Assembly (NCBI GenBank): GCA_016650365.1
Contig: JAENVV010000291.1
Coordinates: 1 to 49,593 of the forward strand
Direction: 5' to 3'
DNA length: 49,593 nucleotides
DNA from: Acidimicrobiia bacterium
GTDB taxonomy: Bacteria; Actinomycetota; Acidimicrobiia; Spongiisociales; JAENVV01
The position numbers and the translations under genes were made by a program. Below the pieces are notes generated by a model. That model ran no database searches, was not told where the DNA came from, and saw nothing but the letters and a program-made list of their open reading frames with translations. How positions within the stretch are numbered: the first letter of the stretch is position 1; every line of letters starts with the position of its first letter. Positions 18,431 to 22,811 of the stretch are shown here, piece after piece.

Positions 18431-20326
18431 ATGTTTCATGGTGGTGGCTGGTATGCCCGGCTGCAATATGACGAAGATCAAGACAAACCGAAAGTCGATC
18501 GCGGTCTGCTGAGGCGGGTCTTTGCATACGCCCGGCCCTATCGGCTCGCCCTGGCCGGCGTGTTCGCCACCATCCTGGTGATCTCGGGTCTCACTGTGTT
18601 GCCCGCCATCCTGATTCGCGAACTGCTGGACAAGGCCATCCCCGACAAAGACTTTGGCTATCTCACCGTGCTTGGACTGTCCATGGTTGCCGTGCCGTTT
18701 GGGAATGCCATCATCGGCGGATTCCAGCGATGGTTGTCTGCCAGGGTCGGCGAGGGGATCATTTTTGACTTGCGGAGACAGTCGTACGCTCACCTGCAGG
18801 CAATGTCGCTCAGATTCTTCACGAACACGCGCACCGGTGAACTGATTTCTCGTTTGAACAACGACGTGGTGGGTGCCCAGTCAGCCATTACCGGGACGTT
18901 CGTGACAATCGTGTCAAACCTCGTCTCGGTCATCGTGATCCTCGTTGTCATGCTCGGTACCGAGTGGCGTCTTACGCTGCTGGCGGTGGCCGCGTTGCCC
19001 CTATTCGTGTACCCCGCCCGTCGAGTTGCCAAGGTGCTGCGGCGAGTCACCGAGCAGGCGATGGAACACAACGCCAACATGTCGAGCATTCTCCAGGAGA
19101 CGTTCAACGTGAGCGGGGCGTTGCTCGTGAAGCTCTTCAATCGTTCTCAGTTGGAACAAGACAAGTTCGCGATCGAGGCTGCGGCCGTCAGGGACCTCGG
19201 CGTTCGGCGGGCACTGGTCGGTCGTTGGTTCTTTGCTGCCTTGGGTCTCGTCACGGCGGTGGGGACGGCCGGTGTGTTCTGGGTAGGCGGCGCCATGGTC
19301 ATCAATGGGGTTATCGAGGTCGGCGAACTCGTTATGTTCTCGACCTTGACAGCCCAGTTGTATGGCCCGCTTTCTGCGCTCTCGAATGCCCGGGTTGAGT
19401 TCGCCACGTCGCTCGTAAGTTTTGAACGGGTCTTTGAGGTACTTGATTTACCTCTTGATATCGCCGAGAAGACCGATGCCGTCCATCTGACCGATCTACG
19501 GGGCAGGATTTCGTTCGAGGATGTGTCGTTTCGGTATGACGCCGGCGAGGGGCTGGAGGCCGTGAAGCGATTCCGGGCGTTCGGGGGTGGCGCCTCCGAC
19601 GAAGGAGAATCGGCGGTTGGCCCGATCGGACGGCCCTGGGCGGTGCGTAACGTGTCGTTTGAAGCCAAACCCGGTCAGATGATCGCGCTGGTCGGGCCGT
19701 CGGGGGCCGGTAAGACCACGATGTCCTATCTCGTGCCGAGGTTGTATGACGTTACCGAAGGCTCAATTCGGATTGACGGCCATGATGTGCGAGACCTCAC
19801 ATTGGGATCGATTGCCGATGGCACCGGCGTCGTCACCCAGGAGAGTTATCTGTTCCATGACACCATCGGAGCGAACCTGCGATATGCCAAGCCTGATGCG
19901 ACCGAAGCCGAACTTGTGGAGGCGTGTCGCGCCGCGAATATTCTCGACTTTGTCGAATCTCTGCCGAATCGGTTCGACACCCTGGTTGGTGAGCGCGGGT
20001 ACCGGTTGTCTGGCGGGGAGAAGCAGCGGATCGCCATCGCCAGGGTGATCCTCAAGAATCCTCGTATGTTGATCCTCGACGAAGCCACTTCGCACCTGGA
20101 CTCTCAGGCGGAGGCGCTCATCCAGGATGCGCTTGAGCGAGTGATGGAGGGCAGAACCTCGATCGTTATTGCTCATCGGTTGTCGACTATTTTGGCCGCT
20201 GATCGAATCCTCGTACTTGACGAGGGTCAACTCGTGGAGTCTGGAACCCATGCGGAATTATTGGATGCCGAGGGACTGTACGCCTCCTTGTTTGAAACCC
20301 AGTTTCGGCATCAGCCGATCCCTTGA
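18431..20326 (+). CDS. ABC transporter, fused permease and ATPase (exporter type)
   Basis: Half-transporter of 631 residues that should work as a dimer, exporting a lipid, drug or peptide. Residues about 35-330 form the six-helix membrane domain. The ATPase domain has A-loop tyrosine (VSFRYD), Walker A GPSGAGKTT, Q-loop VTQESYLF, signature LSGGEKQR, Walker B MLILDEATSHLD and H-loop IVIAHRLST. Between the A-loop and the strand before Walker A there is an extra segment of roughly 30 residues (AVKRFRAFGGGASDEGESAV) absent from typical MsbA-like proteins. GGGGAG precedes the ATG. Its stop overlaps the next start (TGATG). Confidence 0.92.
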   Translation: MFHGGGWYARLQYDEDQDKPKVDRGLLRRVFAYARPYRLALAGVFATILVISGLTVLPAILIRELLDKAIPDKDFGYLTVLGLSMVAVPFGNAIIGGFQRWLSARVGEGIIFDLRRQSYAHLQAMSLRFFTNTRTGELISRLNNDVVGAQSAITGTFVTIVSNLVSVIVILVVMLGTEWRLTLLAVAALPLFVYPARRVAKVLRRVTEQAMEHNANMSSILQETFNVSGALLVKLFNRSQLEQDKFAIEAAAVRDLGVRRALVGRWFFAALGLVTAVGTAGVFWVGGAMVINGVIEVGELVMFSTLTAQLYGPLSALSNARVEFATSLVSFERVFEVLDLPLDIAEKTDAVHLTDLRGRISFEDVSFRYDAGEGLEAVKRFRAFGGGASDEGESAVGPIGRPWAVRNVSFEAKPGQMIALVGPSGAGKTTMSYLVPRLYDVTEGSIRIDGHDVRDLTLGSIADGTGVVTQESYLFHDTIGANLRYAKPDATEAELVEACRAANILDFVESLPNRFDTLVGERGYRLSGGEKQRIAIARVILKNPRMLILDEATSHLDSQAEALIQDALERVMEGRTSIVIAHRLSTILAADRILVLDEGQLVESGTHAELLDAEGLYASLFETQFRHQPIP

Positions 20327-21587: not shown

Positions 21588-21643
21588 GAGGTCATCATGG
21601 CAACGGGGTGTGACAAAAATGGGTATTCGACAAACGGATCCAA

Positions 21644-21677
21644 AGAAAAGACGCCCTGGAGGAAGGGCGCCTTTTCT
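21644..21677 (-). terminator. hairpin terminator after peptide gene 3
   Basis: Plus-strand AGAAAAG then ACGCCC pairs with GGGCGC then CTTTTCT, with one mismatch and an eight-base loop. Read on the minus strand it ends in a TTTTCT tract, as for an intrinsic terminator. A near-identical element follows the other two copies. Confidence 0.75.
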
Positions 21678-21695
21678 GGTTGTAATTTGAGTGGA

Positions 21696-21905
21696 CTAGC
21701 CCCAGGTTGATCCGCGGAGCGAGTAGCTGGAGGTCTGGATCTTGACCGTAACTCCGACCTCTGCCTGGTTAAGAGTCTTCTTGGCGGCTTCTATGTTGGA
21801 GGCTGCCGGAGCGAGAGCCATCGTGACGGCGATCAACAACAAAACAATGGCGGCAATCAGCTTCTGTTTTCCATTTTCCCACGACAATCCAAATGTCTGC
21901 TTCAT
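21696..21905 (-). CDS. small exported peptide ending RGSTWG, copy 3
   Basis: A 69-residue protein: conserved N-terminus MKQTFGLSWENGKQK, hydrophobic segment IAAIVLLLIAVTMALA, an AxA-like site (PAASNIEAA), then a polar tail of about 28 residues ending YSLRGSTWG. This looks like a signal peptide or single membrane anchor with a short external tail. The basic N-terminus predicts the tail outside. The ATG at 21905 follows AAAAGGGA. Stop TAG. I know no named family. It is the longest and most divergent of the three copies. Confidence 0.8.
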   Translation of the reverse strand: MKQTFGLSWENGKQKLIAAIVLLLIAVTMALAPAASNIEAAKKTLNQAEVGVTVKIQTSSYSLRGSTWG

Positions 21906-21940
21906 GTCAGTCCCTTTTCCCCGGTTTTGTGTCTTGTCTC

Positions 21941-21949
21941 TGATATCGG
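21941..21949 (-). promoter_or_regulatory. conserved upstream element CCGATATCA, copy 3
   Basis: Lies 36 bases before the ATG of copy 3. The same element occurs 36 and 35 bases before the other two starts. It could be part of a promoter or an operator. Confidence 0.5.
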
Positions 21950-22047
21950 CTGCAGCCACGATTCCTCGAGAACCAAAGGTGCGGACCTCCAACTAACTAG
22001 TCACTCGATCGGCGGGTCGGCGCCGCCTCGTCGCTACAGACGAGGAA

Positions 22048-22073
22048 AAGGCGCCCCGGAGGAAGGGCGCCTT
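22048..22073 (-). terminator. hairpin terminator after peptide gene 2
   Basis: AAGGCGCCC pairs perfectly with GGGCGCCTT across an eight-base loop, followed on the minus strand by TTTTCC. Homologous to the hairpins after copies 1 and 3. Confidence 0.75.
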
Positions 22074-22093
22074 CTCTAGTTGGATCTGGATTG

Positions 22094-22291
22094 TCAACCC
22101 CAGGTTGATCCCCGGTGGGTGAAACTGCCGGTATTCGAGTGGACGCTCACACCAGAGTCGATGGATCTGGAGGCTTGGAGGCTTGATGCTGCCGGTGTGG
22201 CGGCGAGGGTGATAGCAATCAGCAGAAGGGCAATGGCGGCGACCAGCTTGCGCTTGCTGTGTTCCCAGGACAGTCCGAAAGTTCGCTTCAT
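22094..22291 (-). CDS. small exported peptide ending RGSTWG, copy 2
   Basis: A 65-residue protein: MKRTFGLSWEHSKRK, hydrophobic VAAIALLLIAITLAATPAA, then a short tail ending FTHRGSTWG. It shares the N-terminal GLSWE and the C-terminal RGSTWG with its neighbours, while the middle of the tail (SIDSGVSVHSNTG) has diverged. GGAGG precedes the ATG by about nine bases, the best ribosome site of the three. Stop TGA. Confidence 0.82.
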   Translation of the reverse strand: MKRTFGLSWEHSKRKLVAAIALLLIAITLAATPAASSLQASRSIDSGVSVHSNTGSFTHRGSTWG

Positions 22292-22326
22292 GTTGGTGCC
22301 TTACCTCCGTTTTGGTGTGTTGTGTC

Positions 22327-22335
22327 TGTTATCGG
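22327..22335 (-). promoter_or_regulatory. conserved upstream element CCGATAACA, copy 2
   Basis: Same element as at 21941 and 22689, 36 bases before the copy 2 start. Confidence 0.5.
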
Positions 22336-22404
22336 TAGCAGGCCTGAAATTCTCAAGTTGCAATGAAGGATTTTTGGCCGACACAATCGGCAGTCGGGTA
22401 AGAA

Positions 22405-22436
22405 AGAAAAGACACCCCGGAGGAAGGGCGCCTTTT
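22405..22436 (-). terminator. hairpin terminator after peptide gene 1
   Basis: Third copy of the hairpin; here two mismatches weaken the stem (GACACCC against GGGCGCC), but the AGAAAAG and CTTTTCT flanks still pair. Confidence 0.6.
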
Positions 22437-22456
22437 CTGGTTGTGATCCAAGGGGC

Positions 22457-22654
22457 TTAACCCCAGGTTGATCCACGGAACGAAACGCTCGTGCTTTGAA
22501 TCTGGACCTTTGTGCCGGCATCAAGTGGTTCGGAGGCTTCGAGGCTTGAGACAGCTGGCGTGACAGCCAGGGTGATGGCGATGAGCAGAAGAGCTACGGC
22601 GGCAGCAAGTTTTTGCTTCCCGTGCTCCCATGAAAGTCCAAGTGTGTGCTTCAT
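22457..22654 (-). CDS. small exported peptide ending RGSTWG, copy 1
   Basis: A 65-residue protein and the first of the array in transcription order: MKHTLGLSWEHGKQK, hydrophobic LAAAVALLLIAITLAVTPA, then a tail ending SVSFRGSTWG. The Ser/Thr-rich tail (QIQSTSVS) resembles that of copy 3 (KIQTSSYS). The ATG at 22654 follows ATGGGA. Stop TAA. Nothing next to the array looks like a dedicated peptidase, receptor or modifying enzyme. Confidence 0.82.
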   Translation of the reverse strand: MKHTLGLSWEHGKQKLAAAVALLLIAITLAVTPAVSSLEASEPLDAGTKVQIQSTSVSFRGSTWG

Positions 22655-22688
22655 GTCAGTCCCATTACCCGGTGATGGTGTGTGCTAT

Positions 22689-22697
22689 TGGTATCGG
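22689..22697 (-). promoter_or_regulatory. conserved upstream element CCGATACCA, copy 1
   Basis: Same element 35 bases before the copy 1 start. Further upstream, the region is also similar to that of copy 3 (a TTCTC tract and an ACTAGT site), so the whole upstream region was duplicated. Confidence 0.5.
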
Positions 22698-22811
22698 CCG
22701 CAGGTGCGGGTTTTCTGAGAATCAAAGCCTCGCCTCCTGAAGTGACTAGTCCCAAGCGGGGCGGGTATGATGTGGGCTGCGAGGCGCCATCGTGCGCTCT
22801 AAGGTGATGGC

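Follow-up and report, generated by a model that had tools for sequence, protein, structure and literature searches.

Three small genes lie in tandem on the minus strand of the window, that is, the whole 49,593-nucleotide (49.6-kb) stretch of DNA that was analyzed, from the genome of an Acidimicrobiia bacterium (G000). Gene A (21696..21905) encodes a peptide of 69 residues, MKQTFGLSWENGKQKL...SLRGSTWG, and has an ortholog at the same locus in a second genome of the genus, G001; gene B (22094..22291) encodes a 65-residue peptide, MKRTFGLSWEHSKRKL...THRGSTWG, whose G001 ortholog is 92% identical; and gene C (22457..22654) encodes another peptide of 65 residues, MKHTLGLSWEHGKQKL...SFRGSTWG, with an ortholog also present in G001. 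The sequence-only reading of this locus described three paralogs of 65–69 codons that have in common GLSWE, a hydrophobic segment, and RGSTWG as the last six residues, with 14 bases (GGATCAACCTGGGG) that are identical in all three genes and stop codons that differ (TAG, TGA, and TAA); all of these features are present as described. Among the open reading frames of the window with 30 or more codons, only peptides A, B, and C have an ending of the form G-x-[ST]-W(x), and in the genome of the window the peptide family is confined to this array.

Each gene has its own promoter-like region on the 5′ side and, on the 3′ side, a GC-rich hairpin with a T-run that resembles an intrinsic terminator (all on the minus strand: gene A, 21645..21676, GGCGCCC..GGGCGTC TTTT, −20.4 kcal/mol; gene B, 22045..22076, −23.2 kcal/mol; gene C, 22406..22437, −18.5 kcal/mol); with these elements repeated for every gene, A, B, and C therefore look like three separate transcription units. 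A local scan for sigma-70 promoters found none for the three genes. An Rfam search of the region identified no credible RNA family, and no phage match suggested a viral origin.

The array is located in the same place, between an ABC transporter gene (18431-20326 in the window) and the neighbors on the aminotransferase side, in three of the four other genomes of the genus, with three, two, and two copies (the fourth genome is only 68% complete). Across the 10 copies in four genomes, 19 of 65 positions are invariant, and both GLSW and GSTWG are retained in every copy, that is, the N-terminal motif is conserved as strongly as the C-terminal motif. The RGSTWG ending, which had been called invariant, is so in A, B, and C; in the genus, the last six residues vary once (one G001 copy ends ILGSTWG). 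Values of dN/dS among the copies are 0.16–0.35 at dS of 0.15–1.5, length differences are multiples of three, and no frameshift occurs in any of the 10 copies. Because dS between paralogs is 1.3–1.5, A, B, and C are not recent copies. The sequence-only reading had suggested selection on the C-terminus rather than a very recent copy and had pointed to homologs in related genomes, dN/dS, and frameshifts in close relatives as the places to look; the arrays in three other species of the genus, the purifying selection, and the intact frames agree with that suggestion. The selection data exclude a recent copy, a noncoding artifact, and a decaying fragment, that is, the genes are real. The 14-base identity is nearly complete in the genus (GGATC[AC]ACCTGGGG); in other genera, the motif is written in different codons (e.g., GGC GTC AGC TGG AGT), so the constraint acts on the protein.

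Weaker relatives of the peptides are found in the same order, with N-terminal G[LI][SAT]WD..[KR] (e.g., GLSWDG.KRR) and C-terminal RGVSWS or GRSWS; these are encoded by G126 (two in tandem), G122, G123, G023, G029, and G009, and longer versions with several W units are encoded by G035 and G053. Lengths across the family range from 62 to 86 residues. By inspection, the relatives outside the genus have clean signal-peptidase-I-like sites (e.g., IASA↓R, AQA↓R, ASA↓W, and AHA↓A), and their predicted mature lengths are ∼29–44 residues. Beyond the order, no convincing full-length peptide was detected among the 395 genomes of the class that were searched; weak HMM matches in other genera were inspected singly, and most are chance membrane segments. 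As had been stated from the sequence, no named family matches: in Pfam and NCBIfam searches of the peptides, the best matches (DUF4148 and WGxxGxxG) are both at chance level. In genus g6, a conserved, divergently oriented gene for an NYN-domain (nuclease-like) protein is located beside the peptide gene (L092 10462-11571, L093 981-2045, and L091 3876-4973); in G055, an exported ORF of 130 residues (L010 1192-1584; start MSWAVNAKKFLIAAI) weakly matches the N-terminal part of the peptides and does not contain the C-terminal motif.

Small tandem genes with a fixed C-terminus and a conserved N-terminal block would be expected for RiPP precursors, in which a leader at the N-terminus precedes a C-terminal core; however, a classical signal peptide comes after the N-terminal block, searches gave no match to a RiPP family, and no modification enzyme, exporter, or immunity gene was recognized in the peptide neighborhoods examined in four genera, so the precursor of a modified peptide that the sequence-only reading had entertained is unsupported and, in our judgment, highly improbable. 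The RGSTWG ending may also be a sorting tag. Like known C-terminal tags (WGxxGxxG, NF041742, and PEP-CTERM-like), it is a conserved Trp/Gly motif that ends an exported protein; unlike those proteins, the peptides have neither a C-terminal membrane helix nor a basic cluster, and the NF041742 model finds two of 15 members, with E 0.06 at best.

The peptide profile also matches S8 subtilases in which the signal peptide starts GLSWDGG.. and the C-terminus consists of consecutive G-x-[ST]-W-S units (hereafter W-subtilases); the motifs common to both groups are C-terminal GxSW[SG] and N-terminal GLSW[DE]..K[RK]. The W-subtilases have an intact subtilase domain (PF00082), which is absent from the peptides. 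They are encoded by 35 of the 138 genomes of the order, and none was found in the peptide genomes G004, G035, and G053; W-repeats were detected in 10 of 397 sampled Actinomycetota species, mostly on recognizable subtilases. The W-subtilase of the genome of the window (contig C99) ends GSTWSGKNWTGLTWDHGKRIR and holds both peptide motifs, GSTW and GLSWDHGKRK. Every completely read W-subtilase of this genus ends in GLTWDHGKR; in other genera, the last unit of many is, for example, WLGLSWG, WLGQTWG, or GLSWE. The repeat variant matches the peptide motif of the same genus, that is, GSTW in 80 of ∼95 repeats in the genus of the window and GLSW/GVSW in g6. The C-terminal (GxSTWS)n tail matches no family, and a literature search gave no text match for the repeats. 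A folded tail was considered and set aside: in an AlphaFold2 model of the W-subtilase from G000, residues 516–593 have pLDDT ∼25, so no fold can be claimed. On contig C99, a second W-repeat protein is encoded 3′ of the subtilase (L105 3417-4001, 3698-3967), with its own ACTAGT element and the ending GLTWDHGKRHAQ; it is apparently frameshifted in the assembly, and its G001 counterpart is intact, with an S8 domain. In G126, the tandem peptide genes are directly 5′ of a gene for an S8 subtilase that has a TIG domain and no W tail (L094 675-3653).

In other genera of the order, a gene for a peptide of this family or for a W-subtilase is located directly 5′ of a membrane sensor gene. The sensors have an N-terminal multi-helix membrane domain and a GAF domain, with GGDEF-EAL or HisKA-HATPase as the output; a profile of the sensor domain, built in part from loci that were later counted (G009, G023, G035, and G123), matches 49 of the 138 genomes of the order, with two copies in G000. 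A peptide gene is located beside a sensor gene in seven genomes outside the genus: in G009, G035 (with a gap of 18 nt), G053, G122, and G123, no subtilase intervenes; in G023, a W-subtilase gene separates the two; and in G029, the pair is at a contig edge. No sensor gene adjoins the peptides at the locus in the window or at the peptide locus of G126. Linkage of the W-subtilases to the sensors is operon-like: 26 pairs are within 4 kb, as compared with 0.47 expected for random gene placement in a 3-Mb genome, and in most of these the subtilase precedes the sensor on one strand. On contig C78 of G000, the W-tail ends just 5′ of the sensor, and in G590, which does not belong to the class, the sensor frame starts immediately 3′ of the W-subtilase. 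A W-subtilase with a variant tail, GNLTWGNLTWG..., is also encoded directly 5′ of a sensor (L237, G010:C36).

The distributions agree with the gene order: with phylogeny ignored, a sensor is present in 12 of 12 peptide genomes (one of which, G053, was found via its sensor) as compared with 37 of 126 others, and in 32 of 35 W-subtilase genomes as compared with 17 of 103 others (Fisher p ∼1e-15); the genomes compared are mostly fragmented metagenome assemblies. No W-protein is encoded 5′ of 45 of the 74 sensors, so the principal ligand of the sensor may be something else. In a tree of the 74 sensor domains, the peptide-linked sensors require at least two changes; this rules out a single clade, and peptide and subtilase therefore seem to replace each other as the upstream partner. 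The purifying selection, the signal-peptidase-like sites, and the sensor genes that adjoin the relatives outside the genus support the earlier proposal of an exported, possibly signaling, peptide.

Peptides and W-subtilases have the same motifs at both ends, their genes adjoin in G023, and the G126 peptides are beside another subtilase; the peptides might therefore act on the W-subtilase itself, as a substrate, decoy, inhibitor, or competitor for anchoring or processing of the tail. There is a precedent in LapD/LapG, in which a membrane GGDEF-EAL protein controls an external protease from the inside. However, the peptide gene is directly with the sensor gene, with no subtilase between them, in the five genomes listed above, no W-subtilase was found in G004, G035, or G053, and the histidine kinase outputs imply signaling from the outside to the inside; we consider an action on the protease improbable.

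The peptide, subtilase, and sensor genes share a composite element in which CGAT(A/G), usually inside GCCGATA, is located at a fixed 52–55 nt 3′ of ACTAGT. The window contains only two ACTAGT sites, 5′ of genes A and C (minus strand). The first is in an operator-like palindrome, TGACTAGTTA (21994..22003), with a −10-like box of the flagellar/WhiG type, GCCGATA (21944..21950), 52 nt away (start to start); the second is in the operator-like site GGACTAGTCA (22743..22752), with GCCGATA (22692..22698) at 53 nt. Gene B has the −10-like box CCGATA (22330..22335) without an upstream ACTAGT. The extended palindrome KRACTAGTYM occurs at 18 sites in the entire G000 genome. In addition to peptides A and C, the composite precedes their orthologs, the peptides of G126, G023, G029, and G009, many W-subtilases, the second W-protein of C99, and the stand-alone sensor genes in all of the genomes of this genus that were examined except G002. 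A strict composite pattern gives 75 matches in ten genomes and 22 for a reversed control; ACTAGT is near the start of 22 of 30 W-subtilases as compared with 78 of 673 other long frames. Within 320 nt 5′ of the sensor gene, ACTAGT is present for 17 of 45 sensors that have no W-partner but for only two of 21 that follow a W-subtilase; the background frequency is 33 of 1029 windows. Cotranscription of the sensors that follow a W-subtilase from the promoter of the W-gene would produce such a pattern. Further composite sites (ACTAGT..CGATA) in G000 are on C18 (L264), C164 (L259), and C231 (L263), 5′ of an 89-residue ORF, between genes for two divergent exported proteins of ∼460 residues, and 5′ of a further gene; these are candidate members of the regulon.

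The −10-like box corresponds to GCCGATAA, the −10 consensus of flagellar/WhiG sigma factors (PMC8325347), and G000 encodes a FliA/WhiG-type sigma that scores above the curated cut-off. Because a −35 TAAA is not evident before the peptide genes or in the composite element, recognition of the box by a sigma factor of this type is what we infer from the −10 sequence. In the WhiG-RsiG c-di-GMP switch of Actinobacteria, GCCGATAA is likewise the −10 box before DGC/PDE genes (PMC8325347), and RsiG is reported in Acidimicrobiales (PMC8325347). The element described here differs in having an additional ACTAGT palindrome at a fixed distance and no clear −35 TAAA; its targets also include secreted peptides and subtilases, which were not reported in that study (PMC8325347).

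Both ends and the promoter of the peptide genes match those of the subtilase genes, as they would if the peptide genes were functionless, decaying fragments of W-subtilase genes in which an internal deletion left the signal peptide and the last repeat. Selection at this level over dS of up to 1.5 (dN/dS 0.16–0.35, with no frameshifts in 10 copies) and the conservation of copy number and position in four species make such an origin scarcely credible. The peptides are, instead, an undescribed family of exported W-motif proteins whose gene order and promoter connect them with a membrane sensor.

We propose that A, B, and C encode secreted signaling peptides that act on the membrane sensor and are minimal counterparts of the protease tail; we assign this interpretation a probability of roughly 0.55. 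The signal peptide would direct export, and its cleavage would free a mature peptide of ∼30 residues that presents C-terminal G-x-[ST]-W outside the cell, equivalent to one unit of the (G-x-[ST]-W-S)n pentapeptide tail of the subtilases. Peptides and W-subtilases would then be alternative exported partners of the multi-helix membrane sensor, the membrane domain of which would read the W motif and alter c-di-GMP turnover or phosphorylation. The tail of the W-subtilase would display the motif in many copies, perhaps coupling the abundance of the protease, the shedding of its tail, or its location to the sensor. In the genus of the window, the peptide genes would have become separated from the sensor gene and expanded to two or three copies, with A and C keeping the promoter element of the sensor and subtilase genes that are elsewhere in the genome.

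The same promoter element and gene linkage would also be seen if the sensor controls, and does not bind, the peptides and W-subtilases, that is, if these are coregulated surface or secreted outputs (e.g., surface, pilus, or biofilm-related) in which the W motif serves in retention or assembly at the envelope; the tandem W tails do resemble a binding or retention module, and the tail is modeled as unstructured. Regulation alone does not require adjacency to the sensor; however, a W-gene is directly 5′ of the sensor across numerous lineages, among them that of G590, which is not a member of the order, and this position can be taken by either a peptide or a subtilase. We therefore regard mere coregulation as unlikely, albeit a serious competitor. 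Signaling through the sensor has a broader form, in which a short Trp motif is a ligand epitope for a membrane sensor with a c-di-GMP or phosphorelay output, delivered by either protease-tail repeats or a single-copy peptide, with all of the parts under one promoter element; such a new mode of sensing is an attractive possibility that we advance tentatively and on balance doubt.

The proposed mechanism resembles peptide-receptor signaling; placement in a known pheromone family goes beyond the present data. As in the Gram-positive pheromone systems of the ComX-ComP and AgrD-AgrC type, a small exported peptide has a conserved C-terminal part, and its gene adjoins that of a multi-TM sensor kinase in G122 and G123. 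Unlike those systems, the W-peptides use predicted signal-peptide export instead of a dedicated exporter/modifier, the output of the linked sensor may be GGDEF-EAL, and the motif is also found in tandem on a secreted protease; as far as tested, the sensor domain has no sequence relationship to the ComP and AgrC receptors. A literature search found no matching system for W-repeats, for MASE with peptide ligands, or for Acidimicrobiia pheromones, and a 2016 review contains no report of quorum sensing for the class (PMC4748050). The presence of peptide and protease relatives right beside a membrane sensor points to a peptide-sensing circuit, not described before, in a group of uncultured actinobacteria. 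If correct, the proposal would give Acidimicrobiia a defined peptide-signaling candidate that is tied to c-di-GMP and possibly to WhiG control, and would supply a function-bearing context for the W-repeat subtilases; with so few and such small parts, synthetic peptides would allow a direct test of whether peptide and sensor act as ligand and receptor.

Weak matches to MASE9 (PF20972) are found for 14 of 60 sensor members at E up to 0.01 (best E, 4e-6), with scores of 17–19 bits in the scored members shown as compared with the Pfam cut-off of 24.3 bits. Like MASE9 diguanylate cyclases, the sensors have a multi-helix membrane module before GAF-GGDEF-EAL; unlike them, most members have no Pfam match, about half have a histidine kinase output, and the operon also encodes an exported partner, 5′ of the sensor gene. 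A search of PDB sequences with the sensor profile gave no match. The domain is modeled with pLDDT 93 and pTM 0.88, and the nearest solved folds are, weakly, ECF S-components (E 0.027, TMq 0.42–0.47), which bind small molecules rather than peptides; this resemblance hints weakly at an outward-facing pocket with room for an aromatic side chain and suggests that the sensor class could have arisen from a membrane module that binds ligands. The predicted fold of the sensor domain on contig C185 of G000 is like those of the ECF-transporter S-components RibU and ThiT, with a conserved hairpin, VHLRF..AHSFSMSE.
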